This document shows, piece after piece, positions 264 through 41,186 of a DNA stretch of 42,337 bases (positions within the stretch are counted from its first letter, which is position 1; each line of letters begins with the position of its first letter). The notes under the pieces are model-generated. The model worked only from the letters and a program-made list of their open reading frames with translations. It was not told the DNA's origin and made no database searches. Source of the stretch: Acidimicrobiaceae bacterium (GTDB lineage Bacteria > Actinomycetota > Acidimicrobiia > Acidimicrobiales > Aldehydirespiratoraceae); the NCBI GenBank assembly GCA_028819505.1, contig JAPPLH010000101.1, positions 1 through 42,337 on the forward strand, read 5' to 3'. The position numbers and the translations under genes were made by a program.

Positions 264-1418
264 TTAGCGGCGGAGGAGTCGCTTGAGCCGGCGGACGGCG
301 GGCGTCCACAGCCACTCGGGCTCGGTGTACCGGCGGAAGTTCTCGCCGGGCAGGCCGGTGGGGTCGTAGAAGCTCTGGTCGGCGTGCTTGCGCATCTCGC
401 TGGTGCGCTTCAGTATCTGCAGGGTGGCATAGGCCGTCCCCTTGTGGGTCCAGCCCTGCCGCTGGTAGTTCCAGTTGTCGGGGGCCAGGTCCTGCGCCGC
501 GGCGAAGTGCTCCAAGGCCCGCTCGCTGTCGCCGACCGCCTCGAAGTGCAGCGCCAGCTTGAACGTCGCCTCGGCCAGCCGCCTGTCGTCGTCGACGGGC
601 TTGATCCGCTCGGCCAGCTCCCGGCTCGACCAGACGTGCTCGCTGTCGGCGCCCCGCTCGATCCAGTCGCGGGTCGCCTCCGCGAACGAGTCGTCGCCCA
701 GGCGGATCTTGCCCAGGCCGAACCCGACGGTGGTCTCAGCCGGGTACACGCCTTCGTTGCTGCGGACGATCTTCCCGTTCTCGTCGATCCAGGCGGCCGA
801 CGGCACGTTCACCCAGCCGAACATCGAGCTGATCTCATGCGTCGGGTCGATGACGCACCGGTAGGTCGGCGAGGCCCGGTCGAACCACTTGTCGACCACA
901 CCGGGACCCGCCGAGTCCTGGGCCACGCTGATCAGCTCGAACCGGTCCGGGCCGATCGACTCGTAGAGCTCCTGCCAGACCGGCAGGCTGAAGCGGCAGC
1001 CTCACCAGGAGGCCCAGGTGAACAGGACCACCTTGCGGCCCCGCAGGTCTGAGAGCCTCAGCAGGTCGCCGTTGCACTGGGTCACCTCGAAGTCGGGGGC
1101 GATGGCCGATTCCAGCCCCATCCGACGGACCGCGGGCACCGAGCCAAAACTCCACACGTCGCCGTCGCGCGCGTGCTTCTGGCCCAGCATGTCGGCGAAC
1201 TCCGAGTAGTTGAACCACACCCAGTCGTCGGCGTCGGCGATCCACTCCTCGCGCTTGTGCTCCGGCAGCGGCACGCAGATCTCGCCCAGGCACGCGCCCT
1301 CCGGCTTCATCTGCCAGCCGGTGGCGTCGGGGAGCTCGTTGAGCCGCACCCACAGGACCTCGTCGGCGTCGGTCCGCTGGGCGACTTCGTTCGTCTTGCC
1401 GTCGGCGAGGATGATCAC
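264..1418 (-). CDS. Thioredoxin-like (TlpA/ResA/redoxin-type) selenoprotein with in-frame UGA
   Basis: One reading frame of 384 residues is interrupted only by a UGA at 1004-1002 (codon 139). The frame continues unchanged on both sides. Around the UGA it reads TWASW-Sec-GCRFSLPVW, the position of the redox-active Cys of a thioredoxin fold, with Cys141 as the likely resolving residue. A hairpin 15 nt after the UGA has a GGUCU loop, as in the E. coli fdhF SECIS. The N-terminal 100 residues contain a CLGEIC pair; the C-terminal 200 residues complete a redoxin fold and end in a helical, TPR-like stretch. The start is GTG 1418, with GGAG five nt upstream. The likely role is a thiol/selenol peroxidase or reductase; its substrate is unknown. 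SelA, SelB and tRNA-Sec are not in the window. A nonsense mutation is the alternative, but the SECIS-like hairpin makes that less likely. Confidence 0.85.
971..987 (-). promoter_or_regulatory. Bacterial SECIS-like hairpin
   Basis: On the minus strand the stem CCTGCC / GGCAGG (6 bp, perfect) closes a 5-nt loop GGTCT. The stem begins just after a 14-nt spacer behind the UGA (15 nt to the inner 5-bp stem). Bacterial SECIS elements lie inside the coding sequence just after the UGA and need a GU in the apical loop to bind SelB; this loop has it. It is within the coding region of the selenoprotein. Confidence 0.75.
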
Positions 1419-1512: not shown

Positions 1513-2340
1513 TCACGGCCAGTGCACGCCGGGGTAGGGGTTCGGGTTCGCGGCGGACCAGTCGTGCAGGTGGCGTGCCAGGGCGGGGGCCAGCGCCGAG
1601 CCGCGTGGGTGCTGGTGCTTCCGGACGAAGACGACCGGCACGCACGGCGCGCCCGCGGCGAGCCCGTCGTTGGTGATCGTGGCGAAGTCCGCGAGGTTCT
1701 CCGTCACGATGACGCTTTGGTACTCGACGGCTGCCTCGTAGACCGTGTCGTCATCGCTGCCTCCGAGTCCTGCCTCGGCAACGCTGAGGGCCTCATCGCG
1801 AGGCTGTAGGGCGTGAGATCCATGATGTCCCAGGGCTGCTCGAAGGTGACGAACGGCTGTCCTCGACATTTGGACATCGAGAAGTGCCCCTCGGGTGACG
1901 ATGCCGTCCCTCCAGGCCTCGATCCCGCCGAAGGCTGCTCCGTTGAAGGCGATCTCCTCATCGGGATCACGGCCGTTCCACATGCCGGATTCTGACCACA
2001 AATGGCAAAGAGCGGCCACGTGCGTCAGTGGCAGTCCGTGGCAGTTGACGCCTATGAAGTCGACCGCCATCCCTCCCCCCGGATCTCGAGGGAATCGCTG
2101 CATGAAGTGGCGGGCCGGGTGCGGATTGTCCGGTCCCGGCCCTGTCGGGATGGGCCGGCTCAGCGACACTGTCCGGCCCGTGCGCACCACGGCCGCCGAC
2201 TTCCGCCTCTTCTCGGCCGTGATCAGGTTGAGCGCCCCCAGCTCGTCGTCGTGCCCCCATCGTCCCCAGTTGCGATGCTCGGCCGGGTAGGCGTTGATGT
2301 CCTCGGCCGTCAATCGATCGTCGGCAGTGGTGTCTGACAT
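1513..2340 (-). CDS. Chimeric ORF: N-terminal half of a cyclase-family protein joined to a DUF5615-like PIN toxin
   Basis: Residues 1-155 match the cyclase/kynurenine-formamidase-like family (start with NWGRWGHDDELGALNLIT; metal-site region around NCHGLPLTHVAALCH). The catalytic C-terminal half of that family is missing. From about residue 152 (LLDVQMSRTAVRHL) to 275 the sequence looks like a PIN-like DUF5615 toxin, with IVTENLADFATI as the usual core strand and acidic residue. The switch occurs near nucleotide 1880 at a shared LLDV word. The start is ATG 2340 with AGGAG five nt upstream. No antitoxin gene of the usual small type is present. Both halves are probably remnants joined by a deletion, so the product may be inactive or may act only as a PIN nuclease. 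Confidence 0.6.
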   Translation of the reverse strand: MSDTTADDRLTAEDINAYPAEHRNWGRWGHDDELGALNLITAEKRRKSAAVVRTGRTVSLSRPIPTGPGPDNPHPARHFMQRFPRDPGGGMAVDFIGVNCHGLPLTHVAALCHLWSESGMWNGRDPDEEIAFNGAAFGGIEAWRDGIVTRGALLDVQMSRTAVRHLRAALGHHGSHALQPRDEALSVAEAGLGGSDDDTVYEAAVEYQSVIVTENLADFATITNDGLAAGAPCVPVVFVRKHQHPRGSALAPALARHLHDWSAANPNPYPGVHWP

Positions 2341-2382: not shown

Positions 2383-2413
2383 TTTGACACGCTAAATTAC
2401 TGAGCGTGTCAAA
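2383..2413. promoter_or_regulatory. Inverted-repeat operator in the divergent cyclase/fic promoter region
   Basis: TTTGACACGCT (2383-2393) and AGCGTGTCAAA (2403-2413) are perfect 11-bp arms around a 9-bp AT-rich spacer. A third half-site, GTTTGGCACGCTAA, lies at 2423-2436 and differs by one base from GTTTGACACGCTAA at 2382-2395. The sites lie between divergent genes and overlap the upstream GTG of the fic frame, so the ATG at 2451 is the better fic start. A likely binder is the winged-helix C-terminal domain of the Fic protein itself (inference). Confidence 0.65.
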
Positions 2414-2450
2414 CAGGCCGAAGTTTGGCACGCTAACGGGAGTTCGGCGC

Positions 2451-3845
2451 ATGGGCAGATACGTCTCTCAGAAATGGGACGGCAACCCGCAAGCACTGTG
2501 CGCGAGAGACCGGCGCGGTGGCCGCTTCGACGCCTACGTCCCTCATCGGTTGGAGGGCTGGCAGCCACTACTGTCAGCCGACGTCGTTGCGTTCCTGGGC
2601 GAGACCGAACGCGTGTTGGTGGACACGGCTAGCCGGTTGCAGCCCCGCGTTGGCGGTGACATCTGCCTTTGGGCCGAGTCTCTCGGTTCGTCCCACATCG
2701 AGGGAGTGGCTCCCACCCCCAAGCGAGTTGTGCAGGCACTAGCGAAGCGACAGCACACAGGCGAAGGCGCTACCCATGGAGCGGTGGCTGAGGTCATCGG
2801 CAACATTGATGCCACCGCCCAAGCGCAGCAGATGCTGGCGCAACGCCAGGATCTGCGTTTGGAGACCCTGCTGGACGCTCACCGGACCCTGATGGCCGCG
2901 TCGCCCACCCCCCACTTCGGCGGGGTGGTGCGTTCTGACCAGAACTGGATCGGCGGGAACGACTGGCACCCGCTCGAGAGCGTGTTCGTGCCACCCCCAC
3001 CAGAGATGTGCCTGCCATTGCTGGAGGATCTGATCGTGTACCTGCGTGGGGAAGAGCACCCGCCGATGCTGCAAGCCGCGGTCGCGCATGTCCAGTTCGA
3101 GACGGTTCACCCGTTCGGCGACGGGAACGGCCGCGCTGGCCGCGCCGTGCTCTACGGCGTGCTCAAGCATCGCTGCGTGCCCGGCGGCATGATGCCACCG
3201 GTCAGCTTGGCGTTGTCCCGCAACCGGGATGCGTACCTTGACGCTCTCGCAGAGTTCCAGACCTATGTCGGGGACGCAGACCATCCGCGCCGTTCAGAGG
3301 CGCTGACGCGGTGGCTGGAGGTTCTTGCCGACGCCGTGCAGAAATCGAGCGCAGCAGTGGTCCGGTATCAGCAGGCGATCGGCACTCTGCAGAACCACTG
3401 GCGGGCCGCTGTCGGTGGCCGCAAGAAGCGCTCCGTCGCGGCGGCGGTCATCGACTATCTCTCCGCCAACCCGTCGGTGACCGCAAAGACGCTGGCCGAT
3501 GCGACCGGGTTCTCACAGCGACGATGCGGGGATGCGCTGCGCCGCCTGGAGGTAGCCGGTGTGGTGAGGGGCCGCTCCGCGGGGCCCTTGCTGCGCGTGT
3601 ACGACGCCGACAAGGTGTTTGAGGCATTCAACGTGATGTCCTCGACCGTGTGCGATGCCAAGGCATCGGGCAGCGACTACGCGCCGTTGTTGGCTGATCC
3701 GCTGCTGGTGGGCAGCCGCGACGTGTCCACGACCCGCTCGCCTACGGGTCTATGCCCACGCAATGTGAAGTCCACCGGCTTGCCTTGCGGGCTCGTCCGC
3801 AACCACAAGGGCCACTGCCGTCACCTGCCGCACCGCAAGACATGA
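2451..3845 (+). CDS. Fic-family protein (AMP transferase) with C-terminal winged helix
   Basis: Fic proteins transfer AMP from ATP to hydroxyl side chains of target proteins. The catalytic motif HPFGDGNGRAGR starts at His220. An N-terminal inhibitory helix motif, SSHIEG at residues 80-85, fits the (S/T)xxxE(G/N) rule of self-inhibited class II Fic proteins. After the Fic core comes a segment with helix-turn-helix character (VTAKTLADATGFSQRRCGDALRRLEVAGVVRG region, about residues 345-380), so the protein may bind its own operator. The last 60 residues contain CPRNV and CGLVRNHKGHC, a Cys/His-rich tail of unknown role. ATG 2451 has GGGAG eight nt upstream; an in-frame GTG at 2406 lies inside the operator. 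The length of 464 residues is usual for Fic proteins with an added wHTH. Confidence 0.88.
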   Translation: MGRYVSQKWDGNPQALCARDRRGGRFDAYVPHRLEGWQPLLSADVVAFLGETERVLVDTASRLQPRVGGDICLWAESLGSSHIEGVAPTPKRVVQALAKRQHTGEGATHGAVAEVIGNIDATAQAQQMLAQRQDLRLETLLDAHRTLMAASPTPHFGGVVRSDQNWIGGNDWHPLESVFVPPPPEMCLPLLEDLIVYLRGEEHPPMLQAAVAHVQFETVHPFGDGNGRAGRAVLYGVLKHRCVPGGMMPPVSLALSRNRDAYLDALAEFQTYVGDADHPRRSEALTRWLEVLADAVQKSSAAVVRYQQAIGTLQNHWRAAVGGRKKRSVAAAVIDYLSANPSVTAKTLADATGFSQRRCGDALRRLEVAGVVRGRSAGPLLRVYDADKVFEAFNVMSSTVCDAKASGSDYAPLLADPLLVGSRDVSTTRSPTGLCPRNVKSTGLPCGLVRNHKGHCRHLPHRKT

Positions 3846-6048: not shown

Positions 6049-6445
6049 TGGTGGAGCTGGGGAGAATCGAACTCCCGTCCGTCGGGCGGATACCGGGCTC
6101 GCTACGACCATTCCCGAGTCTGCGGCTTGCGGCTGCCGCCACGCCGGGTCGTGCGGATCGGAGGATCCGGCCGCCGGATCTTTCTCCGGTGCCAGCGGTC
6201 TTTGCCAGCTGTCGGCGGGTCTCTCCCCGCCGTCCACCCCTGCTTCTGGTGCCAGGCTGCAGCGGTCCGGCCCCGCGTGCCATTGCTGGTCGCGATGATT
6301 CTCGGCTGCTAGATCAGGTCTGATCAGGCGACGAGAACGAGAGCGTCGTCTTCGGCGTCTCTTCGGTTGCCCCGTTTAAGGAGTCTGAGCAACTCCGGTC
6401 GCACTCCGCGGCCTCCTGGTCCCGACGTCGAAACCGGTCAGCCCC
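6049..6445 (-). ncRNA. ssrA: tmRNA
   Basis: The 5' end GGGGCTGACCGGTTTCGAC (6445 downward) and the 3' end CAGCTCC-A-CCA (to 6049) pair as a 7-bp acceptor stem and carry an encoded CCA. A T-arm GGGAG-TTCGATT-CTCCC precedes it. The tag frame at 6371-6324 reads GNRRDAEDDALVLVA then TGA, ending in a hydrophobic degron (ALVLVA) instead of the common ALAA. The resume codon is inferred. A GATCAG/CTGATC hairpin follows the tag stop, as expected for helix 5. tmRNA rescues stalled ribosomes with SmpB, whose gene is 0.7 kb upstream on the same strand. The length of 397 nt is normal. The accessory block starts just beyond its 3' end. Confidence 0.95.
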
Positions 6446-16977: not shown

Positions 16978-17712
16978 CTACTGGTAGAAGGCGCCTCCGT
17001 TGACCACGAGGTTCTGGCCGGTCACGAAGTCGGAGCCGGGGCCCGCGAGGTACAGGATCGTCCCGACCATGTCCTCTGGCACCTGGGTGCGCTTCATGGC
17101 CCGCCCGGCCACCACGAACTCGTCGCTGGCGGCGTCGGAGGGACGCAGCGACGGGTTGGGGATCAAGTCGGGGCTCACGGTGTTGACCGTTATCCCGTCG
17201 GGACCGAGCTCCTCGGCCAGGCAGCGCGTCAGTCCGATGAGGGCGGTCTTGCTCACCACGTAGTGGGGGAAGCCGACCGTGCCCTTGAAGCAGGTGGTGG
17301 AGGAGATGTTGATGATCTTCCCCGACCCCTGCTGCTTCATGTAGGGGTAGACCGCGCAGGACATGAGCCAGGCGCCCCGCACGTTGACCTCGAAGGCCCG
17401 GTCCCAATCCTGCAGCGATACCTCGTGGAACGGGCTGCGGGTGATCTGGGAGTAGTAGGCGGCGTTGTTGATCAGCACGTCGATGGTGCCGAACGCGCCG
17501 GCTGCGGCCGCGGCCAGAGCCTCGGTGCCGGCCGCGGAGCTGACGTCGGTATGCCAGCCGACAGCCCGGCCGCCACCGGCGGTGATCTCGTCTACGGCCT
17601 GGGCGGTGTCGAGCAGGTCGGCCACGACGATGTCGAACCCGTCGCCGGCCAGGGCCAGACAGTAGACCCGGCCCAGACCCCTGGCTCCTCCGGTCACGAT
17701 CGCAGTTGGCAT
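16978..17712 (-). CDS. Short-chain dehydrogenase/reductase (SDR)
   Basis: A classical SDR of 244 residues: TGGARGLGRVY for NAD(P), INNAAYY, INISSTT with the catalytic Ser, and YVVSK with the Tyr and Lys. The Asp in VVADLLD suggests NAD rather than NADP preference. The C-terminus SDFVTGQNLVVNGGAFYQ is repeated as a decayed fragment at 21769-21830. ATG 17712 has GGGGA upstream. It is divergent from hen1, with an inverted CAACC-G-GGTTG between them. The substrate is unknown; proximity to E1 genes suggests a role in oxo-acid or acetoin metabolism. Confidence 0.85.
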   Translation of the reverse strand: MPTAIVTGGARGLGRVYCLALAGDGFDIVVADLLDTAQAVDEITAGGGRAVGWHTDVSSAAGTEALAAAAAGAFGTIDVLINNAAYYSQITRSPFHEVSLQDWDRAFEVNVRGAWLMSCAVYPYMKQQGSGKIINISSTTCFKGTVGFPHYVVSKTALIGLTRCLAEELGPDGITVNTVSPDLIPNPSLRPSDAASDEFVVAGRAMKRTQVPEDMVGTILYLAGPGSDFVTGQNLVVNGGAFYQ

Positions 17713-17749
17713 GAGCTGTCCCCGAGGTTGCGGGGCCGGAAACCTAATG

Positions 17750-17760
17750 CAACCGGGTTG
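17750..17760. promoter_or_regulatory. Small inverted repeat between SDR and hen1
   Basis: CAACC-G-GGTTG; a GGTTGC at 17726-17731 also pairs with GCAACC at 17749-17754. It is a possible regulator site in the 60-bp divergent gap. Weak evidence. Confidence 0.25.
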
Positions 17761-17772
17761 AATGTCCAATCC

Positions 17773-19161
17773 ATGCTCGTCTCGCTGACCTCGACGACGC
17801 CTGTCGCTACCGACTTGGGGCACCTGCTGCACAAGCACCCCGATCGTGTGCGCTCCGTCGACGTCGGCTTCGGGCGCGCCCACGTCTTCTACCCCGAGGC
17901 CACCCCGCAGCGGTGCACGGCGACGACCTACGTCGAGGTCGACCCCTTCGGCCGGACACGTCACCGGCAGCACCGTCGAGCCCAAGGACTCGAGCCCTAC
18001 TTGAACGACCGGCCCTATGCGGCGTCGTCGATGTTGAGCGTTGCCCTGGGGCGCCTGTTCCGCACAGCTTTGAACGGCACGTGCGAGGCCCGGCCCGAAC
18101 TGGTCGGGCAGTCGCTCGACCTCGAGGTCGGCCTGCCGGTCGTGCCGGTGCGGGGCGGGCAGCAACTGCTGCGGCGCCTGTTCGAGCCGCTGGGCTACGA
18201 CGTGGACTGCTCGTCCATAGCACTGGACACCGAGTTTCCGGCCTGGGGGGACAGCCGTCACGTGTCGGCTCGACTGGCCGGCCGTCAAACGGTGCGCTCG
18301 GCCTTGGAACACCTCTACGTGCTGCTCCCGGTGCTCGACGACAACAAGCACTACTGGATCGGCCCCGACGAGGTGGACAAACTGCTGTCACGGGGCGGCG
18401 ACTGGCTCGGATCTCACCCTGAGTCGGACCTGATCGCCCGCCGTTACCTGCGTCTTCCCGACTACACGCGGGAGGCGCTGGCCCGTCTCGCCGACACCGG
18501 CGAGGACTCCGACCTCCTGGACACCCAGCGAGACGCGGCCGAGCAAGCGACCGAAGCACCCCTCCGCCTGGGCGAGCAGAGACTGGAGGCGGTGCTCGAA
18601 GTCGTGCGGAGCGTCGGGGCGGGAAGCGTTCTCGATCTCGGGTGCGGGGAGGGCCGGCTTCTGGAGCGGCTGATCGTCGAGCCCGCAGTGACCCGCGCCG
18701 TGGGAGTCGACGTGTCGGTGGGGGCGCTCAATAGGGCCGAGAAGCGTCTGAGGCTCGAGAACATGTCCGAGCGTCGCCGCGAGCGCGTCCAGCTGCTTCA
18801 GGGTGCCTTGACCTACACCGATTCCCGGTTGCGGGGCTTCGACGTGGCGACGGTCGTCGAGGCTGTCGAGCACCTCGACCCCGACCGCCTCGACGTGTTC
18901 GCCGAGGTGGTGTTCGGGCATGTATCCGCCTCGACGGTGGTGCTGACCACTCCGAACCGCGAGTACAACCAGAACTTCGAACAGCTCGACAGCAGGGGCT
19001 TGCGCCACGAGGACCATCGCTTCGAGTGGACTCGGGCCGAGTTCGAGGCATGGGCCGGCGGCATGGCGGAGCGCTTCGGCTACAGCGTCGAGATCAGCGC
19101 CGTCGGCCCGGTCGATCCGGTGTGCGGGCCTCCGACACAGATGGCGGTGTTCAGCCGATGA
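17773..19161 (+). CDS. hen1: Bacterial Hen1, 3'-terminal RNA ribose 2'-O-methyltransferase
   Basis: Hen1 methylates the 2'-OH at the 3' end of a cleaved RNA before Pnkp ligates it, so the repaired RNA resists the same nuclease. The 462-residue length matches bacterial Hen1. Residues 1-250 form the N-terminal domain that activates Pnkp ligase, and the SAM site LDLGCGEG is at 287-294. The Mn2+ ligands E363, E366, H367 and H415 have the same spacing as E366, E369, H370, H418 of the Clostridium thermocellum protein. ATG 17773; the Pnkp gene starts 10 bp after the stop. Related ORFs that read further upstream are shadows of the SDR gene. Confidence 0.95.
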   Translation: MLVSLTSTTPVATDLGHLLHKHPDRVRSVDVGFGRAHVFYPEATPQRCTATTYVEVDPFGRTRHRQHRRAQGLEPYLNDRPYAASSMLSVALGRLFRTALNGTCEARPELVGQSLDLEVGLPVVPVRGGQQLLRRLFEPLGYDVDCSSIALDTEFPAWGDSRHVSARLAGRQTVRSALEHLYVLLPVLDDNKHYWIGPDEVDKLLSRGGDWLGSHPESDLIARRYLRLPDYTREALARLADTGEDSDLLDTQRDAAEQATEAPLRLGEQRLEAVLEVVRSVGAGSVLDLGCGEGRLLERLIVEPAVTRAVGVDVSVGALNRAEKRLRLENMSERRRERVQLLQGALTYTDSRLRGFDVATVVEAVEHLDPDRLDVFAEVVFGHVSASTVVLTTPNREYNQNFEQLDSRGLRHEDHRFEWTRAEFEAWAGGMAERFGYSVEISAVGPVDPVCGPPTQMAVFSR

Positions 19162-19171
19162 GGCGGCTGCT

Positions 19172-21715
19172 GTGAGACGCCGGCTCGACCGCATCGAGAT
19201 GCCCGAACTCGGACTCGTGGTGCTCTGCGGCGCGTCCGGCTCGGGCAAGTCGACGTTCGCTCGACGGCACTTCGCTCCCACCGAAGTCGTGTCGAGCGAC
19301 CGGTGCAGAGCCCTGGTCGGCGACGACGAGACCGACCAGTCCGTCACCTCGGCAGCCTTCGAACTGCTCCACACCGTCGTCGACAAGCGTCTCGAGATCG
19401 GTCGCCTCACGGTGGTCGATGCCACCAACACGAAGCCCGAGGACCGCAAGGCCCTCCTCGAGCTGGCGCGCCGCTGGGACGTGCTGGCTACCGCCATCGT
19501 CTTCGACCTCGCCGTCGCCGCGTGCCTGGCCCACAACGAGAAGCGCCGGGACCGCCGCACACCGGTGCATGCCATCAAGCGTCAGCACGACACCCTGCGC
19601 CGCGGGGTCAAGCGGCTGCGCAAGGAACGCTTCACGAGGGTCTACACGCTCGGCTCGCTCGAAGAGCTCGACGGCGTCGAGGTGGTCCGCACCAGGATCT
19701 GGAGCGACCGCCGCGGCGACACCGGCCCGTTCGACATCATCGGCGACGTCCACGGCTGCCATGTCGAGCTGCTGAGCCTGCTCGACCGGTTGGGCTACGA
19801 CACCGCGGCCGAGCCCGTCGCGCATCCGGAGGGCCGCCGAGCAGTGTTCCTCGGCGACCTGGTCGACCGCGGCCCCGGTGTCGCCGAAGTGCTCGACGTC
19901 GCCATGTCCATGGTGGCTGCCGGCAGTGCGCTGTGCGTCGCGGGCAATCATGAGGTCAAGCTGGGTCGGGCCATCGCGGGACGCAACGTCCGGGTCAGCC
20001 ACGGGCTGGCCGAGTCGCTCGAGCAGCTGCAGCGGCGGGCCCCCGAGTTCTCCGAACGAGTCGCAGAGTTCATTGACGGCCTCATCAGCCACTACGTGCT
20101 CGACGGCGGCCGGCTGGTGGTCGCCCACGCCGGCCTCCCCGAGCGCTATCACGGGCGTTCCTCGGGCCGCGTGCGGGACCTCGCGCTGTACGGCGACACC
20201 GGCGGCGAGACCGACGAGTTCGGGTTGCCGGTGCGGTATCCGTGGGCCGAGGACTATCGCGGCGAGGCCGCGGTCGTGTACGGCCACACTCCGGTCCCCG
20301 AGGCGGTCTGGGTCAACAACACGATCTGCGTCGACACCGGAGCGGTCTTCGGAGGAGAGCTGACCGCACTGCGCTGGCCGGAGCGCGACCTGGTGTCGGT
20401 GCCCGCAGTCGCCGAGCACTACGAGCCGATCCGGCCCGCCCGCCCCACAGCCGGCGCGTCGTCGGGACCGTCACGGCTGCTCGACGTGGGCGCGGTGCTG
20501 GGCAAGCACCACATCGAGACGAGGCTGGCTGGGCGGGTGCTGATCGAAGCCGAGCGGTCGAGCGCTGCCCTCGAAGTCATGAGCCGCTTCGCGGCCGACC
20601 CGAGATGGCTCCCGTACCTGCCCCCGACCATGGCGCCCGCGGCTGCCTCGGTCCGTCCCGGCTACCTCGAGCATCCCGACGAGGCGTTCTCGTACTTCCG
20701 CAAGGCAGGCGTCGACGAGGTCGTGGCCCAGGAGAAGCACATGGGCTCGCGGGCGGTGCTGGTCGTCGCCCGGGACGCCGACGCAGCCCAGTCGAGGTTC
20801 GGCATCTCCAATCCCGAGGCCGGCGTCATCGTCACCCGCACCGGCAGATCCTTCTTCTCCGAAGCGGCCGTGACTGGTGCCCTGCTCGACCGGGTGCGGA
20901 CCGCGGCCGACGCCACGGGGCTGTGGAGCCGCCTCGGCACGGACTGGCTCATCCTCGATGCAGAGATCCTGCCGTGGTCGGCCAAGGCAGCCGGTCTGAT
21001 ACAGCGTCTGTATGCCGCGGTCGGCGCGGCGGGCACGGCCGCGCTCGATTCCGCATGTGGATCGATGGCTGACGCGGCCGGACGCGGCGTCGATATCGAG
21101 GCTCTCGCGGCCCGCACCGCAGAGCGGGCCGGGCATGTCGCGGCGTACGTCGATTCGTATCGCCGCCACTGCTGGGACATTGACGGCGCGGACGGCGTCG
21201 AGATCGCCCCGTTCCAGATCCTCGCGGCCGAGGGTGAGGTGCTCGCTCGCCGGCCCCACCGCTGGCATCTCGAGGAGATCGATGCGCTGGCTGACTGCGA
21301 ACCGTCCGCACTCTGCAGCACCGACCGCCGGTTCGTCGACTTGGGCGACGATACGTCGGTGAAGCATGCGACGGACTGGTGGCACTCACTGACCGACGGC
21401 GGAGGCGAGGGCGCAGTCGTCAAGCCAGCCGAGCCGATCATGACCGGCGCGGGCTCGCTCGTCCAGCCCGGCGTCAAGTGCAGGGGCCGCGAGTACCTGC
21501 GCATCATCTACGGCCCCGAGTATCTCGAGGCGGCGAATCTTGAGCGTCTGCGGCAGCGGTCGATCGGTCGCAAGTCGTCATTGGCCCGGCGTGAGTTCGC
21601 GCTCGGGATCGAGGCCCTCGATCGGTTCGTGGCCAACGAGCACCTCGCCCGGGTGCATGAGTGCGTCTTCGGCGTCCTCGCACTCGAGAGCGAGCCGGTC
21701 GATCCCCGGCTCTAG
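19172..21715 (+). CDS. pnkp: Polynucleotide kinase-phosphatase-ligase Pnkp
   Basis: This enzyme heals and seals broken RNA in three domains. The 5'-kinase has the P-loop GASGSGKST (20-28); the 2',3'-phosphatase has GDVHG (191-195), GDLVDRG (228-234) and GNHE (258-261); the adenylyltransferase/ligase has EKHMGSR with nucleophile Lys522. All catalytic motifs are intact and the length, 847 residues, matches the C. thermocellum enzyme. It forms an operon with hen1 (GTG start 19172, 10 bp after the hen1 stop), as in known bacterial RNA repair cassettes. Next comes an SDR remnant, then vapBC. The physiological break substrate is not known; tRNA cut by a ribotoxin is the standard hypothesis. Confidence 0.95.
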   Translation: MRRRLDRIEMPELGLVVLCGASGSGKSTFARRHFAPTEVVSSDRCRALVGDDETDQSVTSAAFELLHTVVDKRLEIGRLTVVDATNTKPEDRKALLELARRWDVLATAIVFDLAVAACLAHNEKRRDRRTPVHAIKRQHDTLRRGVKRLRKERFTRVYTLGSLEELDGVEVVRTRIWSDRRGDTGPFDIIGDVHGCHVELLSLLDRLGYDTAAEPVAHPEGRRAVFLGDLVDRGPGVAEVLDVAMSMVAAGSALCVAGNHEVKLGRAIAGRNVRVSHGLAESLEQLQRRAPEFSERVAEFIDGLISHYVLDGGRLVVAHAGLPERYHGRSSGRVRDLALYGDTGGETDEFGLPVRYPWAEDYRGEAAVVYGHTPVPEAVWVNNTICVDTGAVFGGELTALRWPERDLVSVPAVAEHYEPIRPARPTAGASSGPSRLLDVGAVLGKHHIETRLAGRVLIEAERSSAALEVMSRFAADPRWLPYLPPTMAPAAASVRPGYLEHPDEAFSYFRKAGVDEVVAQEKHMGSRAVLVVARDADAAQSRFGISNPEAGVIVTRTGRSFFSEAAVTGALLDRVRTAADATGLWSRLGTDWLILDAEILPWSAKAAGLIQRLYAAVGAAGTAALDSACGSMADAAGRGVDIEALAARTAERAGHVAAYVDSYRRHCWDIDGADGVEIAPFQILAAEGEVLARRPHRWHLEEIDALADCEPSALCSTDRRFVDLGDDTSVKHATDWWHSLTDGGGEGAVVKPAEPIMTGAGSLVQPGVKCRGREYLRIIYGPEYLEAANLERLRQRSIGRKSSLARREFALGIEALDRFVANEHLARVHECVFGVLALESEPVDPRL

Positions 21716-29659: not shown

Positions 29660-31012
29660 GTGCATGTCATCGTGGTGGGTGCCGGCGAGGTCGGCTCCTA
29701 CGTGGCCGCTCGCCTCAGCCATGAGCGCCACAACGTCGCGGTGGTCGACGTCAGCGCCCACCGCCTGCGCCAACTCGGCGCCGAGCTCGACGTGCTCGCC
29801 GTGGAGGGCAGCGGCACCCATCCCAGCGTCCTCACCGACGCCGGGCTCGACGGCTGCGATCTGGTGGTGGCCGTCACCAGCAACGACGAGGTGAACCTGG
29901 TGGCGTCGTTGATCGCCAAGCAGCACGGCGTTGACAAGACCATCGTGCGCATCGAGTCCGAGGAACTGCGCAGCCGGTCGTCGGCTGAGCTGCTCCGGGC
30001 GTTCGGGGCCGACCTCGTCATCGATCCCGACCGCCAGACCGCGGAGCGGATCCTGAACCTGCTCGACTACCCGGGGGCGTCGGAGATAGCGGTCATGGCC
30101 CAGGGGGAGGCCATCGTGATCGGCGCCCGCCTGGAGGCCGGCGCCCCCATCGTGGGCCGGCGCCTGTCTGAGATCGCCGCCGAGCACGAGCCCGACTGGG
30201 AGTTCATCGTCGGTTCGATCTCCCGGGGCGAGGACACCTACATCCCCCGCGCCGACTACATGCTGCTGGAGGACGACCTGGTGCGGGTGGTCTGCAAGCG
30301 GCGGGCCCGTCACCGGGTGGCCAAGCTCCTGGGCCTGGGGGCCGGCGAGGTCCGCCACGTGCTGCTGCTCGGCGGGGGCCGCACCGCCGAGATCCTCGCG
30401 GCCCGGCTGGTGTCGAGGGGCGTGGAGGTGGTCATCGTGGAACGAGACCCGCCGCGGGCCCTGGAGCTGGCCGAGCACCTGGACGGTGTGCAGGTGTTCG
30501 AGGGCGACATCACCGACGCCGACCTCCTCGAGGAGACCAACCTCGGCCGCTTCGACGCGGTGGCCGCGCTGACCGGCGAGGACGAGTCCAACATCCTGGC
30601 CTGCCTCTACGCCAAGTCGGTGGGCGCGTCGGAGACGGTCGCGGTGGTTCACAAGCTGGCCCTGCTGTCGCTGCTGGACTCCGCCGGCGTCGACGTGGCC
30701 CTCTCGCCCCGAACCGCCACCGCCGACGGCGTGATGCGCTTCGTGCGCGGCGACGTCGCCGCGGTGGCGACCTTCCTGGAGTCCGACGCCGAGGTGCTGG
30801 AGCTCGAAGTGGAGAACGGCAGCCCCGCCGACGAGGCCCTCGTGAAGGACCTCAAGATCCCCAAGGGCGTGCTCATCGGCGCCATCGTGCGCGACGGCAA
30901 GCCGCACATCGCCCGCGGCCGGAGCCGGCTGCGCGGACGCGACCACGTGGTCGCCTTCGCCACCCCGGGCTCGGTGAGGGAGGTCCACCGGCTGTTGACG
31001 TGCGAAGACTAG
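29660..31012 (+). CDS. trkA: Trk potassium uptake regulator TrkA
   Basis: TrkA is the NAD(H)-binding cytoplasmic ring that gates TrkH. The 450-residue protein has two RCK halves: HVIVVGAGEVGSYVAARL (GxGxxG) with VVDVSAHRLRQL, then HVLLLGGGRTAEILAARL with VIVERDPPRALEL. Each half ends in a C-terminal RCK_C domain (GAPIVGRRLSEIA; GSPADEALVKDLKIP). The length is normal. The GTG start is followed by two trkH genes in the same direction. A dispersed repeat copy begins two bases inside the end of the gene (31011). Confidence 0.94.
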   Translation: MHVIVVGAGEVGSYVAARLSHERHNVAVVDVSAHRLRQLGAELDVLAVEGSGTHPSVLTDAGLDGCDLVVAVTSNDEVNLVASLIAKQHGVDKTIVRIESEELRSRSSAELLRAFGADLVIDPDRQTAERILNLLDYPGASEIAVMAQGEAIVIGARLEAGAPIVGRRLSEIAAEHEPDWEFIVGSISRGEDTYIPRADYMLLEDDLVRVVCKRRARHRVAKLLGLGAGEVRHVLLLGGGRTAEILAARLVSRGVEVVIVERDPPRALELAEHLDGVQVFEGDITDADLLEETNLGRFDAVAALTGEDESNILACLYAKSVGASETVAVVHKLALLSLLDSAGVDVALSPRTATADGVMRFVRGDVAAVATFLESDAEVLELEVENGSPADEALVKDLKIPKGVLIGAIVRDGKPHIARGRSRLRGRDHVVAFATPGSVREVHRLLTCED

Positions 31013-31110
31013 AGGCCGAGCGGACAGGCGGCGATCTGTGCAGGTCGTCGCGAGCCGCGGAGCGAGGCCGTGGCCCGAGCGGCCCGTGAGCGCCAGCGAG
31101 CAAGAGCGGG
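31011..31110 (+). repeat. Dispersed GC-rich repeat, copy C
   Basis: Full-length type: AGAGGCCGAGCG at 31011, GGCGGCGATCT after it, then GCGAGGCCGTGGCCCGAGCG and ends AGCAAGAGCGGG. It begins in the trkA stop codon and fills most of the trkA-trkH gap. An open frame for the next gene runs through it (ARAARERQRARAG), so a start at GTG 31070 would give a protein with a repeat-derived N-terminus. Confidence 0.8.
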
Positions 31111-31147
31111 AGTGACACCGTTGCGAAGCGACGGACTCTTGAGCGGT

Positions 31148-32755
31148 ATGCGCTCACGACGAGGCGGCGCGGGGGGTCGGCCGGCCGGCGGCTTGAGACG
31201 CTTGGGCGGTCTGCGTCGCACCCGTCCCCTGCTTCCCGGTCCGAAGGAGCGGCCACCGGCTCGGATCGTGTCCTGGGCGTTCGCCTCGATCGTCGACGCG
31301 GGCCTCGTGCTCGGCGTGGCCACCATGGTGTGCGGCCTCGCCGGAATCGGCGACGACAACACCGACGCAGTGGCGTTCGCTTGCGCGGGGGCGGTGTGCG
31401 CGGTCATCGCAGCCGTGGCCAGACGGCGGGTCGCGCCGCCCGACCGGCCCGGAACAGGCCGGGTGTTCGCCGGCATCGGCCTCCTCTGGACGGTGCTGGT
31501 GCTGTTCGGCACCGTCCTCTATGCGGCCACCGGCAGCGTGGCCCGCCTCGACGACGCCCTGGTCGAGTCGGCAGCCGGCTTCACCACCACCTCGCTCACC
31601 CTCCTGGACGCCGCCGAGGCGTCGCGGTCGGTGGTGCTGTTCAGGGCGGCCAGCAGCTGGGTGGGGGGCCTGATCGCGGTGTGGATCGGGGTGGTGACCC
31701 TCCCGGTCGTGCTGCGGTCCACCGCTCTGATCGGCTACACCACCGGGCGCAGGGGGCTGGACCTCGTGCCCAGCGCCGCCACGGGCAGGCGCCGGGTGCT
31801 CGTCCTGTACTCGGGCTTCACCGCGGCCTGCGCGGTCGCCTACCTTCTGACCGGTCTGGGCGTCACCGAGGCGCTGGTGGTGGGCCTGGGCACCGTCTCC
31901 ACCGGGGGCTTCACGGGCCGGGCCGACTCGCTGGCCGGCTACGGCGCCGCCACCCAGGCGGTCGCTGGCGTCGGGATGTTTCTGGCCGGCGCGGGGATCT
32001 TCGTGATCTGGTGGATCGCCCGGGGTCGGCTCCGTCCTCTCTGGCGCTCCCAGGAACTGAGGGCGTTCGTTGTGCTGCTCGCGGCGGCAACGGTCGCGAT
32101 GGCCCTGCACCGGGGCGTCGGCTGGGGCGAGGCCGCCTTCATGGCCGTCTCGGCTATGAGCACGACGGGGTTCGCGGTGGTCGACTGGACGGGGTGGGGG
32201 ACCGCGACCACGGTGATCCTGCTGGTCGCGGCCGGGATCGGGTCGATGATGGGCTCGGCGGGCGGCGGCATGCGGGTCATGCGAGCCCAGCTGCTGATGG
32301 GCTCGGCGGGAGGAGAACTGCGCCGCCAGCTCGATCCCTACGCGGTCGTGCTGGTGCGGCGCGACCAGGAGACCCTCTCCCAGCGCACCCTGGACCGCCT
32401 GGGCGGCCACCAGGTCGCGTACGTGGTCCTGGTGGGGCTGGGGGCCATGCTGCTGGGCGTCTCGGGTGTGTCCCTGCTGGGCAGCGTGTGGGGGTCGGTG
32501 AGCGCGGTGACCACCTTCGGTCCCGCGGTGGGAGAGATCGGCGCCTTCGGGCTGCTGGAAGGCGTGGACCGGGCCGAGCGGCTGGCCCTGGTGCCGCTGA
32601 TGCTGGGCGGCCGGATGTCGGTGCCCCCGGTGCTGGCCGGCGTGGGCCTCGTGCTCAACACCTACAGGACGATGCAGCGGCGGATCCGCTTCTCCCTGCG
32701 GCAGATGTCCCGCCGCCGCGACACCCCCGGCCAATCCGGACCGGAAGATGGCTAG
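31148..32755 (+). CDS. TrkH-family potassium transporter subunit (divergent paralogue 1)
   Basis: A 535-residue membrane protein with the four P-loops of the TrkH/KtrB family: SAAGFTTTSLTLL, VSTGGFTGR, SAMSTTGFAVVD and TTFGPAVGEIG, each with the filter Gly. GGRMSVPPVLAG matches the end segment. The N-terminus is Arg/Gly-rich and cytoplasmic. ATG 31148 was chosen because the longer frame from 31070 starts inside a dispersed repeat; the true start is uncertain. Its stop overlaps the next trkH start, so the two are coupled. Filter loops differ enough from the second copy that the paralogues may differ in ion selectivity or affinity. Confidence 0.85.
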   Translation: MRSRRGGAGGRPAGGLRRLGGLRRTRPLLPGPKERPPARIVSWAFASIVDAGLVLGVATMVCGLAGIGDDNTDAVAFACAGAVCAVIAAVARRRVAPPDRPGTGRVFAGIGLLWTVLVLFGTVLYAATGSVARLDDALVESAAGFTTTSLTLLDAAEASRSVVLFRAASSWVGGLIAVWIGVVTLPVVLRSTALIGYTTGRRGLDLVPSAATGRRRVLVLYSGFTAACAVAYLLTGLGVTEALVVGLGTVSTGGFTGRADSLAGYGAATQAVAGVGMFLAGAGIFVIWWIARGRLRPLWRSQELRAFVVLLAAATVAMALHRGVGWGEAAFMAVSAMSTTGFAVVDWTGWGTATTVILLVAAGIGSMMGSAGGGMRVMRAQLLMGSAGGELRRQLDPYAVVLVRRDQETLSQRTLDRLGGHQVAYVVLVGLGAMLLGVSGVSLLGSVWGSVSAVTTFGPAVGEIGAFGLLEGVDRAERLALVPLMLGGRMSVPPVLAGVGLVLNTYRTMQRRIRFSLRQMSRRRDTPGQSGPEDG

Positions 32756-34382
32756 CGACACCGTAGTCGGGGCCGCGCCGGCCGGTCCGAGCCCGCTGAG
32801 GAATCGGTTCGACTCCACCACCATGCACATCCTCGGCATCGCCCTGGCCGCGGTGTCGCTCGGGATGCTGTGCTGCACGCTGCTGGAGGCGGTCACCAGC
32901 CGGCGCGACACGATGGCGCTGGGGACCTCCGCGCTGCTGGCCGGCACGGCCGGGGGGCTGATGTGGTACGCCACCGTCCCGGGCGTGATCCGCATGCGTC
33001 AGGTCTTCGCCACCGTCTCCTGGACGTGGATCCTGACGACGGTGGTGGGAGCGGTTCCCTTCGTGCTGGCCGGCACCTTCGCCGCGCCCGGCGTCGGGTT
33101 CGTCGAGCAGGTCGTCAACAGCGTGTTCGAGTCGGCGTCGGGCTTCTCGGCCAGCGGCTCCACCGTCCTGTCGGACTTCGAGTCCCCGGGCCGCGGCCTG
33201 ATGATGTACCGCCAGCTCACCCACTGGTACGGGGGCATGGGCGTGGTGGTGCTGGCGGTGGCGGTGCTGCCGTTCCTCGGCGTCGGCGGCCTGGAGCTCA
33301 TCACCGCCGAGCTGCCGGGCACGTCGTCGGACCGTCTCGCCCCGAGGGTCAGCGAGACGGCCCGGAGGCTCTGGCTGGTCTACATCGGCTTCACCGCCTG
33401 CGCGGCGATGTCGTTCTACGCAGCGGACGGCTTCTCCTCCCTGTACGACGCGGTGGCCCACGCGTTCACGTTCGCGGCCACCGGCGGCTTCTCGGTGCAT
33501 GCCGACTCGATCGGCCACTATGACAGCGTGGCGGTGGAGACGGTGGCGATCGTGTTCATGATCCTGGGTGGCACGAGCTTCTCGCTGCACTGGCGACTGG
33601 TGGCCACCCGCACCCTGGGATACCACCGCAACAGCGAGTTCCGGACCTACCTCGCGATGCTCGGTGCGTGCTCGGCCGCCATCGTGCTCATCATCTGGCT
33701 GGAGAACGGGCTGCCCCTGGGATCGTCCATCCGGGCCGCGGTGTTCACCGTGGTGTCGCTGGGGACCAGCACAGGGCTGTCCAACGCGACGGGACCGGGC
33801 TCGCCCGGCGACTACGTCGCCTGGGTGGCCGGGGCGCAGCTGGTACTGCTGTTCCTGATGGTGGTGGGCGGCTGCACCGGGTCGACGTCGGGCGGAATAA
33901 AGGTGATGAGGATGAGGGTGCTGGGCCTGACGATGCTCCGGTCGGTCCAGCACGCCCAGACGCCCCGGGCCGTCATCCCGATCCGGCTCGGCGCCGACAG
34001 CGTCCGCGAGACCGTCGTGTCGCGGGCGACCGGGTTCTTCCTGCTGCACTTCGTGCTGGTGATGGCCGGCCTGCTGGCTGTGACCTCGCTCGGCGGGGAG
34101 TTGGAGACGTCGCTGGGCGCGGTCGTGTCGGCGCTGGGGAACATGGGCCCGGCGCTGGGCGAGGCCGGCCCGACCTCCGACTACGCGGTGGCGTTCACCC
34201 AGCCGGCCAGGCTGGTGCTGGCCCTGCTGATGGTGATCGGCCGGCTGGAGATCTTCCCGATCCTGCTGACGGGCGTGGGCCTGGTGACCACCGCATACCG
34301 CGGCACGGTGCGGCAGGGCCGCCGCACCGTGCGATGGACGGCCCGCCGCCTGGAGGACCTCGCCGAGCGGGAGCGCGAATAG
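32748..34382 (+). CDS. trkH: Trk potassium uptake protein TrkH
   Basis: 544 residues with about ten membrane helices. The four filter loops are SASGFSASGSTVL, AATGGFSVH, SLGTSTGLSN and SALGNMGPALG, and the end GRLEIFPILLTG is the classic TrkH signature. The internal cytoplasmic segment LVATRTLGYHRNSEFR is also typical. ATG 32748 lies inside the end of the preceding trkH (8-bp overlap). It is the more canonical of the two TrkH proteins and probably the main K+ channel gated by TrkA. Low repeat-free intergenic sequence follows. Confidence 0.93.
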   Translation: MASDTVVGAAPAGPSPLRNRFDSTTMHILGIALAAVSLGMLCCTLLEAVTSRRDTMALGTSALLAGTAGGLMWYATVPGVIRMRQVFATVSWTWILTTVVGAVPFVLAGTFAAPGVGFVEQVVNSVFESASGFSASGSTVLSDFESPGRGLMMYRQLTHWYGGMGVVVLAVAVLPFLGVGGLELITAELPGTSSDRLAPRVSETARRLWLVYIGFTACAAMSFYAADGFSSLYDAVAHAFTFAATGGFSVHADSIGHYDSVAVETVAIVFMILGGTSFSLHWRLVATRTLGYHRNSEFRTYLAMLGACSAAIVLIIWLENGLPLGSSIRAAVFTVVSLGTSTGLSNATGPGSPGDYVAWVAGAQLVLLFLMVVGGCTGSTSGGIKVMRMRVLGLTMLRSVQHAQTPRAVIPIRLGADSVRETVVSRATGFFLLHFVLVMAGLLAVTSLGGELETSLGAVVSALGNMGPALGEAGPTSDYAVAFTQPARLVLALLMVIGRLEIFPILLTGVGLVTTAYRGTVRQGRRTVRWTARRLEDLAERERE

Positions 34383-34413
34383 GTGAGAGTCCGTCGCGTC
34401 GCAGCGGTGCCGT

Positions 34414-34441
34414 CCCCGATCTTGTTCGCTGCGCTCACGGG
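34414..34441 (-). repeat. Dispersed GC-rich repeat, copy D (partial)
   Basis: CCCCGATCTTGTTCGCTGCG then CTCACGGG, the distal end of the repeat in inverse orientation. It is followed by CGCGTCGCAG, which also occurs before it, so D and E form a small tandem array. Confidence 0.7.
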
Positions 34442-34486
34442 CGTGGAGTGGCGCGTCGCAGCTTCGGGCGCCTGGGCGAGCGCCGT

Positions 34487-34566
34487 CCCCGATCTTGTTC
34501 GCAGCGCTCACGGGCCGCTCGGGCCAAGGCCTCGCGCCGCCTGCGCCGCCTGTTCGCTCGGCCTCT
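34487..34566 (-). repeat. Dispersed GC-rich repeat, copy E
   Basis: Nearly full-length inverse copy: CCCCGATCTTGTTCGCAGCG, then GGGCCGCTCGGGCCAAGGCC, ending GCCTGTTCGCTCGGCCTCT. It shows that the AGAGGCCGAGCG end and the GCGAACAAG end belong to one element. Confidence 0.8.
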
Positions 34567-34572
34567 GCTGAC

Positions 34573-34603
34573 TTGACGGCTGCCGGGATCTCTCCGGTAG
34601 GTT
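34573..34603 (+). promoter_or_regulatory. Candidate gltBD promoter
   Basis: -35 TTGACG (34573-34578) and -10 TAGGTT (34598-34603) with a 19-bp spacer, which is slightly long. It would give a leader of about 120 nt. Confidence 0.45.
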
Positions 34604-34733
34604 GTCTGGACGCGTTTCGAGCGGTGAGCGGCCAATGACGTCCCTCCCGCCGCCGTGCAAGCCGCGGTTCGGGCACGCCAGTTCTGCCTGAGGAGCGCTG
34701 CCAACGACGATCCAGCCTCCCGCGAGGAGAACG

Positions 34734-37700
34734 ATGGCCGCCGACCACGCACACCCCCAGGGCCTCTACGACCCGCAGAACGAGCACGACGCCTGCGGCG
34801 TCAGCTTCGTGTGCAACATCAGCGGGAAGGCCTCGCACAGCGTGGTGGCTCTGGGAGTGCGGGCCCTGTGCAATCTCGAGCACCGGGGGGCGCTGGGCGC
34901 CGACCCGCTCACCGGCGACGGTGCCGGCATCCTGATCCAGATACCGGACCGGTTCCTGCGCGACGTGGTGGACTACGAGCTCCCGCCCGCGGGCCGGTAC
35001 GCCACCGGCATCGGGTTCCTGCCCGCCGCCCACCACGACGCCGAGAAGGCGGCGGCGCAGGTGGAGCGCATCGTGCGCTCCGAGGGTCTCCATGTGATCG
35101 GGTGGCGGGACGTCCCCGTCGACACCGCCGTGCTGGGTCCGGGCTCGCGGGCCGCGATGCCCAGCTTCCGCCAGGTGTTCATCGCCGGCGACGACATCGC
35201 GGGCATCGATCTCGATCGGCGGGTCTACATCGTGCGCAAGCGCATAGAGCACGAGATAGGGCCGGGGGGCGCCGGCTACGAGGCGGCCGAGGACGACGAC
35301 GCGGCCATGGGCAACGCCGCACCGCCCCACACCGGCGTCTACTTCCCGAGCCTCAGCGCCCGGACGCTGGTCTACAAGGGGATGCTGATGTCCCGCCAGC
35401 TCACGTCGTTCTACGCCGACCTGCGCGACGAGCGGATCGAGAGCGCGCTGGCGCTGGTCCACTCCCGCTTCTCCACCAACACCTTCCCGTCGTGGCCGCT
35501 GGCCCACCCCTACCGCATGATCGCCCACAACGGCGAGATCAACACCATCGCCGGCAACCGCAACTGGATGCGGGCCCGCGAGACGCTGCTCTCGTCGCCG
35601 CTGCTCGATGGCCTGGAGAGGGCCTTCCCCGTCTGCACGCCCGGCGCCAGCGACACCGCCGGCTTCGACGAGGTGCTGGAGCTCCTGACACTGGGCGGCT
35701 ACTCCTTGGCCGAGGCGGTCCTGATGATGATCCCCGAGCCCTGGGAGCATCACGCCGAGATGGCCGCCGAGCGCAAGGCGTTCTACCAGTACCACGCCAC
35801 CCGGATGGAGCCCTGGGACGGCCCGGCCTCGATCGCCTTCACCGACGGGACCGTGATCGGCGCGGTTCTCGACCGCAACGGGCTGCGACCCTCGCGCTAC
35901 ATGGTCACCAGCGACGGTCTGGTGGTGATGGCGTCGGAGACCGGCGTGATCGACGTTGCGCAGTCGTCGGTGGTGGAGAAGGGCCGCCTGCAGCCCGGGC
36001 GCATGTTCCTGATCGACACCGCCGAGGGCCGCATCGTGCGCGACGACGAGATCAAGGACCGCCTGGCCTCGGGCCGTCCCTACGGCCAGTGGCTGGACCA
36101 GAACCTGGTCCATCTCGACGACCTGCCCCGTCGCGAGGTTCCCAGAGGCCGAGTCCGCGAGGCCGTGGCCCGAGCGGCCCGTGAGCGCAGCGAACAAGAG
36201 CGGGGCTCGCGCCGCGACGAGGGGTCGCTCATCCAGCGCCAGCAGATGTTCGGCCACACCCACGAGGAGCACCGCCTGCTGCTGGCGCCCATGGCCATCG
36301 ACGGCAAGGAGGCGTTGGGCTCGATGGGCACCGACACGCCGCCGGCGGTGCTGTCGGACCGGGCCCGACCGATCTACGACTACTTCAAGCAGCTCTTCGC
36401 GCAGGTCACCAACCCGCCGCTGGACGCCATCCGGGAGGAGCTGGTCACCTCGCTGTACGCCCGGGTCGGCCCCGAAGGCAACCTCTTCGACCCCCGGCCG
36501 TCGTCGTGCCGGACCGTCCACCTCGACAGCCCGGTCATCACCGACACCGAACTGGCCCGGCTGGTGGAGATCGACGGACCGGGCGGGATCGGGGACTTCC
36601 GCACCGAGGTGCTGCCCGCCCTGTTCGCGGTCGCCGACGGGGGCGACGGCCTGCGCCGGGCGCTGGACGGGCTGTGCGACGCGGCGTCGGCCGCCATAGC
36701 CGCGGGAGCCGACATCCTGGTGGTGTCCGACCGGGGCAGCGACGAGCGGATGGCGCCCATCCCGTCGCTGCTGGCCGTCTCCGCCGTGCACCAGCACCTG
36801 GTGCGGGAGCGCACCCGCACCCGGGTGGGGCTGGTGTCGGAGACCGGCGACGCCCGAGAAGTCCACCACCTGTGCCTGCACCTCGGCTACGGCGCCAACG
36901 CGGTCAACCCCTACCTGGCGTTCGAGACCATCACCCACATGGTGACGGAGGGACTCCACGGCCTGGACCCGGCCATGGGGGTCGAGGCCGCGCACCGCAA
37001 CTTCGTGAAGGCGGCGTGCGCGGGGATCCTCAAGGTGATGTCCAAGATGGGCATCTCCACGGTGGCCTCCTACACCGGCGCCCAGATATTCGAGGCCATC
37101 GGGCTGGGCCCCGAGCTGGTGGACAAGCACTTCACCGGAACGGCCAGCCGCCTGGGAGGCATCGGCACCGACGAGATCGCGGCCGCTGTGGCGGTGCGCC
37201 ACCGGCGGGCCTTCCCCGCCAACGCCACCCGGCGGGCCCACCGCACCATCGAGGCCGGCGGCGAGTACCAGTGGCGGCGCGAGGGCGAGTACCACCTGTT
37301 CAACCCCGAGACCGTGTTCAAGCTCCAGCACGCCACCCGCGAGCGCCGCTTCGACATCTTCCGGGAGTACACCCGGCGCGTCGACGACCAGTCCAGCCGC
37401 CTGGGCACGTTGCGGGGGCTGTTCCGGCTGCGCACCGGTGAGCGGCCGCCGGTGCCGCTCGACGAGGTCGAGCCGGTGGCCGAGATCGTCAGGCGCTTCG
37501 CCACCGGCGCCATGAGCTACGGATCGATCTCCAAGGAGGCCCACGAGACCCTGGCCATCGCCATGAACCGCATCGGCGGCAAGTCCAACACCGGCGAGGG
37601 CGGCGAGGACGCCGACCGTTACATCCCCGATCCCAACGGCGATCTGCGGCGCAGCGCGGTCAAGCAGGCCGCGTCGGGCCGCTTCGGCGTGACCAGCGAG

Positions 37701-39617: not shown

Positions 39618-39619
39618 CC

Positions 39620-39719
39620 AGAGGCCGAGCGGGAAGGCGGCGATTCTTGATGATTCCACCGCGGCGCCCAGCGAGGCCGTGGCCCGAGCGGCCCGTGAGC
39701 GCAGCGAACAAGAGCGGGG
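39620..39719 (+). repeat. Dispersed GC-rich repeat, copy G, between gltB and gltD
   Basis: Full-length copy: AGAGGCCGAGCGGGAAGGCG, a variable middle, then AGCGAGGCCGTGGCCCGAGC and GTGAGCGCAGCGAACAAGAG, ending in a G run three bases before the gltD ATG. It fills the 105-bp gltB-gltD gap, and its terminal G run may serve as the gltD ribosome site. Confidence 0.85.
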
Positions 39720-39722
39720 GAC

Positions 39723-41186
<1,464 letters not shown>

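Follow-up and report, generated by a model that had tools for sequence, protein, structure and literature searches.

A very likely selenoprotein gene with a U-G-C redox site and a conserved hairpin after its UGA codon in an Acidimicrobiaceae genome

The analyzed stretch of DNA, herein referred to as the window, comprises the whole contig JAPPLH010000101.1 (42,337 nucleotides) of an Acidimicrobiaceae bacterium (GenBank assembly GCA_028819505.1). On its minus strand, translation of the frame 264-1418 reveals a single internal stop, the TGA at 1004-1002, which is codon 139 and lies in the context TWASW-U-GCRFSLPVW, where U denotes selenocysteine (Sec). After this codon the frame runs through 245 sense codons to its terminal stop at 264-266, as the sequence-only reading, an earlier interpretation of the same DNA, had proposed for a long coding frame past the UGA. 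A listing of open reading frames (ORFs) splits this gene in two, 1002-1487 and 264-926. The apparently broken gene is very likely intact, with its stop read as selenocysteine, and its product is very likely a selenoprotein. The following features belong to the gene and its predicted decoding:

264..1418, minus strand: predicted selenoprotein gene that starts with GTG at 1418 and stops at 264-266, with a product of 384 residues including Sec139; it matches the family NF041054 with 268.9 bits and AhpC-TSA with 59.7 bits
1424..1427, minus strand: likely ribosome-binding site GGAG, found at the same position in most of 16 relatives compared
1002..1004, minus strand: UGA codon 139, predicted to be read as selenocysteine; TGA in 49/49 loci, a cysteine (Cys) codon in 24/25 genomes of a sister family
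971..987, minus strand: candidate selenocysteine insertion sequence (SECIS) hairpin, with a 6-bp stem (987-982 with 976-971), the loop GGUCU at 981-977 and an inner pair of 981 with 978

The GTG start at 1418, that of the sequence-only reading, fits better than an ORF beginning at 1487, since it is preceded by the GGAG at 1424-1427, similarity to relatives begins there, and in-frame stops lie just upstream of this position in several of the 16 relatives. Both parts of the gene match consecutive segments of the NF041054 profile: the part before the UGA covers model positions 8-115 with 75 bits and the part after it positions 117-322 with 173 bits. Downstream of the UGA, the ratios of nonsynonymous to synonymous change (dN/dS) are 0.12-0.44 in 20 comparisons. 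The downstream half is thus not decayed, whereas decay of this half had been named by the sequence-only reading as a sign against itself. In total, 10 UGA codons near Cys were listed in long frames of the window, including that of the selenoprotein gene.

SelA, SelB, SelD and tRNA-Sec, whose presence is one criterion for bacterial selenoproteins, are all encoded in the genome of the window (3.73 Mb, 167 contigs, 94% complete), where the earlier interpretation had suggested looking for them; their absence, which would have refuted it, is thus not the case. The genes selA (369 bits) and selB (274 bits) are located on the same strand of contig C123, about 120 bases apart by their matches, and selD (354 bits) is on contig C28. 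A tRNA-Sec with the anticodon TCA was called by ARAGORN on contig C102. The Rfam tRNA-Sec model alone is a soft test here, because the second match above its gathering score in this genome is a tRNA-Ser. The selD gene itself (L012:1501-2415, minus strand) has one in-frame UGA, in GAG-U-ACK, which we take to be the usual Sec/Cys site of SelD.

Codon 139 is TGA in all 49 loci in which it was read (L022-L070), a set that includes the window's own locus (L042) and repeats of the same genes. An NF041054 match at E <= 1e-30 containing one TGA was found in 40 of the 51 genomes from the window's family; the codon was read directly where a locus was made (L022-L051), and the remainder rest on the count of one TGA in the match. 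A phylum sample of 296 genomes yielded 18 with a match at this threshold: two belong to the window's family, 13 have UGA forms, one has a Cys form (G216), and two (G102 and G173) are cut before the codon. The loci L081, L083 and L088 hold the downstream part of the gene only, with no readable codon, so that G173 and G102 stand outside the selA tally below. The family of G216, the sister family, comprises 172 genomes, of which 25 gave a match at E <= 1e-25, with TGC or TGT in 24 and TGA in one (G378). The alignment thus bears out the expectation that a UGA stands in place of a redox Cys, as codon 139 is either UGA or Cys among the homologues.

A selA match above the cut-off was found in 39 of the 40 genomes that carry UGA forms in the window's family and in 12 of the 13 from the phylum sample. 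In the sister family, selA was found at E <= 1e-20 in 14 of 172 genomes, including the UGA-form genome G378, and at this threshold in none of the 24 Cys-form genomes. Pooled, selA is present in 52 of 54 UGA-form genomes versus 0 of 24 Cys-form genomes (Fisher 4e-18). Two trees were built, the first with 75 rows and the second with 72, in which L080, L091 and L069 were omitted as long branches; the window is represented by the row win_L033, that is, locus L033, whose 60-nucleotide stretch is identical to that of the window. The Cys forms need one change only on the tree, with 94/87 support in the second tree, and under midpoint rooting they are nested inside the Sec forms. Of 19 loci compared, 17, with 79-95% identity, belong to metagenome-assembled genomes of Acidimicrobiaceae, Acidimicrobiia and unnamed bacteria; several of these relatives presumably come from sponges.

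The candidate hairpin follows the UGA after a 14-nucleotide spacer (1001-988) and comprises the 5' arm CCUGCC (987-982), the loop GGUCU (981-977) and the 3' arm GGCAGG (976-971). The perfect stem thus starts at the 15th nucleotide after the UGA, where it had been placed before. The bacterial SECIS (bSECIS) model, as given in the relevant passage of a 2026 review, requires a loop of 3-9 nucleotides, a stem of 4-16 bp, a G in the first two loop positions, a distance of 16-37 nucleotides from the UGA and an energy of -7.5 kcal/mol or lower (PMC13188914). The window hairpin lies within these limits, with a loop of 5, a stem of 6, G at positions 1 and 2, a distance of 20 nucleotides and, as an isolated hairpin, -10.0 kcal/mol. 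Folding of the single sequence, which had also been suggested, therefore agrees with the model and at the same time stays within chance, as detailed below.

The stem becomes significant by comparison among homologues only, the window sequence alone being insufficient. Across 50 distinct UGA sequences, 99.3% of 300 cells are paired, two-sided changes are found in three of the six stem pairs (9 cells), and none of 500 shuffles is as good. RNAalifold recovers the stem unprompted. All six pairs are kept in 48 of the 50 sequences, compared with a mean of 19.7 and a maximum of 34 of 50 under synonymous resampling. The complete stem was found in 49 of 51 Sec forms versus 15 of 24 Cys forms (Fisher 4e-4).

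A clearer contrast is provided by a pair inside the loop. In alignment A2, columns 33 and 36 correspond to the third positions of a Pro codon and of the following Val or Gly codon. These columns are Watson-Crick paired in all 51 distinct Sec forms (26 CG, 22 GC and 3 AU) versus only 9 of 24 Cys forms, or 13 when GU is included (Fisher 5e-7). In 10,000 shuffles the number of paired forms averages 24.3 and peaks at 39, never attaining 51; for comparison, of 1024 cases of neighbouring four-fold sites within the window's clade, 410 can pair, with wobble and the loop codons included. The type of the loop pair changes among Sec forms at least 6 times on the 75-row tree and 5 times on the 72-row tree. 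When the loop pair is included in the overall pair count, two of the five measures are attained in 1 to 2 of the 500 shuffles, and in a control with partners shifted by -1, two-sided changes persist in 23 cells versus 34. By its synonymous loop pair in Sec versus Cys forms, the hairpin is selected as RNA.

Several results weigh against selenocysteine decoding through this hairpin or reduce the force of the evidence for it. With z of -0.39, -0.60 and -1.16, none of three folds made from single sequences of the region stands out, and 11.6% of 3000 synonymous resamplings of the window have an equally good bSECIS-like hairpin, with a hairpin of -7.5 kcal/mol or better in 25.7%. Two sequences, L067 and L085, each break one pair, and -7.5 kcal/mol with an uninterrupted stem is reached by 45 of the 50 Sec forms and not by the other five. 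The full stem in 15 of the 24 Cys forms means that protein coding accounts for part of the stem. No dip in synonymous change was found over the hairpin region (0.245 for codons 140-165 versus 0.254 for codons 25-138), and no 9-codon window of this region is among the 15 lowest. Additionally, the UGA-form genome G086 has no selA match, G024 has a selA fragment only, and the Cys forms make up one clade, so that the selA contrast amounts to about one event.

The protein encoded by the gene has three parts, with the following features:

1104..1418, minus strand: N-terminal domain, residues 1-105; no family found, predicted local distance difference test (pLDDT) score of the model 86.7
1275..1292, minus strand: invariant Cx4C pair, Cys43 (1290-1292) and Cys48 (1275-1277), in 43/43 homologues
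741..1103, minus strand: ResA/TlpA-like thioredoxin-fold domain, residues 106-226; AhpC-TSA match of 59.7 bits, ResA proteins as nearest structures
996..998, minus strand: Cys141, putatively paired with Sec139 as the U-G-C site; invariant across the 43 homologues aligned
474..575, minus strand: TPR-like repeat at residues 282-315, part of a helical tail; TPR_2 E 0.011 with 16.2 bits, short of the gathering score (27), and profile matches to TPR proteins

Searches with the N-terminal domain matched no family and no known redox domain. P206 is invariant among the aligned homologues and presumably occupies the usual cis-Pro place of the thioredoxin fold. An export signal or membrane anchor was looked for by a hydropathy scan only, in which none of the 19-residue windows that start before residue 60 exceeded 0.24. 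The earlier description as a thioredoxin-like protein is right as to the fold and needs correction in detail: the domain is ResA/TlpA-like with UxC rather than UxxC, and is accompanied by the N-terminal Cx4C domain and the TPR-like tail.

It is very likely, in our judgment, that the gene encodes a 384-residue selenoprotein with codon 139 decoded through SelB and the hairpin, and with a U-G-C redox site in a ResA/TlpA-like fold, most likely a reductase. On the comparative evidence, SelB carrying Sec-tRNA(UCA) would bind the hairpin 3' of the UGA, and the ribosome would insert selenocysteine at codon 139. Homology and the structural model suggest that Sec139 and Cys141 form the redox site. The protein is probably a cytosolic thiol-disulfide oxidoreductase, most likely cycling between selenol-thiol and selenylsulfide as a thiol-disulfide or peroxide reductase. 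The most likely role of the Cx4C pair is electron transfer to the selenylsulfide or metal binding, and that of the TPR-like tail is to bind a partner protein.

A nonsense mutation or an assembly error, with the rest of the gene decaying, would also explain the one internal stop, and the UGA-form genome G287 of the phylum sample has two flawed-looking copies, of which L087 carries a further in-frame TAG and L080 appears frameshifted after the UGA. However, the UGA is identical in all 49 loci, which come from many genomes, and both the dN/dS past it and the 173-bit match of the downstream half speak for a maintained protein; we give this explanation practically no weight. Equally hard to credit are two separate genes on either side of the UGA, as the ORF lists present them (1002-1487 and 264-926), since one and the same model is matched by both halves in succession, and a gene boundary at the UGA would divide the thioredoxin fold in the middle of the active site. 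The pseudogene, assembly-error and two-gene readings were set aside on the consecutive NF041054 matches, the 49/49 TGA codons, the dN/dS and the exchange with Cys.

Decoding of the UGA with no selenium, by near-cognate readthrough or Cys insertion with a low yield of full-length protein, is very improbable: Cys-coding forms occur where selA was not found, the loop pair is kept in UGA forms only, and a UGA is likewise present in selD of this genome, at the usual Sec/Cys site. A selenoprotein that handles selenium or metals, in which the Cx4C and U-G-C sites jointly bind a metal or mercury/copper species, is unlikely, if clearly less remote than the preceding explanations. The two invariant Cys pairs (Cx4C and U/C-x-C), an N-terminal domain matching no known redox domain and a UxC differing from the usual UxxC are in its favor, whereas the thioredoxin fold, the invariant P206 at its assumed cis-Pro place and the ResA proteins as nearest structures argue for a redox function.

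Selenocysteine decoding at codon 139 would rescue a gene that looks broken and show that selenocysteine is used in uncultured Acidimicrobiia. The Cys sister family with no selA offers a paired contrast for the benefit of selenium and for the loop features that SelB needs, and the U-G-C site beside the invariant Cx4C domain would make a defined, testable redox protein. Taken together, the observations may reflect a strict loop rule, N-G-[U/G]-N'-U, in which N and N' form a Watson-Crick pair, held through at least 5 compensating synonymous changes under UGA and relaxed once Cys had appeared and selA was gone. The family would then be a natural experiment on what the SelB of Acidimicrobiia reads, and the invariant Cx4C domain would serve the U-G-C site as its own internal redox partner; we see the case for and against this combined proposal as evenly balanced.

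Downstream of the selenoprotein gene only 263 bases are readable. In the flank comparison, the selenoprotein gene alone is common to all flanks. Its upstream neighbour (1513-2340, minus strand), with a C-terminal DUF5615 domain, recurs wholly or in pieces in 5 of 19 loci (L052, L053, L054, L058 and L062), and each of the remaining matches between flanks connects a few loci. The following features were also found in the window:

2406-3845, plus strand: Fic/DOC-family protein with a winged-helix region
6049-6445, minus strand: transfer-messenger RNA gene, tag peptide AEDDALVLVA
17263-21715, plus strand: adjoining genes for a Hen1-like methyltransferase and a Pnkp-like kinase/phosphatase/ligase, a bacterial RNA-repair pair
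29660-34382, plus strand: TrkA-like gene followed by two tandem TrkH-like genes
32655-40742, minus strand: open frame of 2695 codons with no Pfam match, antisense to glutamate synthase (34734-39617, plus strand) and the genes next to it; most likely a side effect of high GC

The thioredoxin fold of the ResA type is common to the window protein and the ResA/TlpA thiol-disulfide oxidoreductases. The latter have a CxxC active site and an export signal or membrane anchor. In contrast, the window protein has UxC (CxC in the Cys forms) and extra N- and C-terminal parts. No N-terminal hydrophobic stretch was seen in the hydropathy scan.

The hairpin had been likened to the Escherichia coli fdhF SECIS, and the two share a small hairpin soon after the UGA and a G-U in the loop. 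In fdhF, G23 and U24 are read by SelB between a flanking pair, and the same four-base arrangement is found in the loop of the window. The likeness ends at the 5' arm. The fdhF upper stem-loop lies 11 nucleotides from the UGA and needs a bulged U17, with U17, G23 and U24 named in the passage concerned (PMC8659212), whereas the window hairpin has a spacer of 14 nucleotides and a 5' arm with no bulge, and hence no counterpart of U17.

The closest described family is NF041054 of NCBIfam (WAxxUGC_long, 'ResA-like WAxxUGC motif-containing protein'), which shares the three-part plan and the U-G-C motif, present as WASWUGC in the ResA-like domain of the window protein. At E <= 1e-5, it is matched by every one of the 43 homologues aligned. 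The window protein, at 268.9 bits versus the curated cut-off of 300, is a related subfamily below the formal cut-off, and a pipeline based on cut-offs may therefore miss it; the expectation of the sequence-only reading that routine annotation would break the gene is plausible for this reason. The window's clade (18 rows) lies on a long branch, and the N-terminal domain of the window protein has an extra stretch after Cx4C.

A published family, the Prx-like (UGC-containing) or UGC-containing TlpA disulfide reductase family selenoproteins, equated here with NF041054 by motif and domain rather than by accessions, shares the pfam00578-type domain and the UGC motif. One UXC Prx-like sequence is already in the Sargasso Sea set, according to the passage on it (PMC1088965), and the table of the GOS study gives 46 Sec sequences and 855 Cys homologues (PMC2398784). 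The family is also listed in a 2022 review (PMC9312934) and in the 2026 review (PMC13188914). The passages on this family in these sources make no mention of the Cx4C N-terminal domain, and the string 'WAxxUGC' was not found in the literature searched. The family is thus already in print and in NCBIfam, and the interest of the window gene lies in the Sec/Cys contrast and the loop rule.
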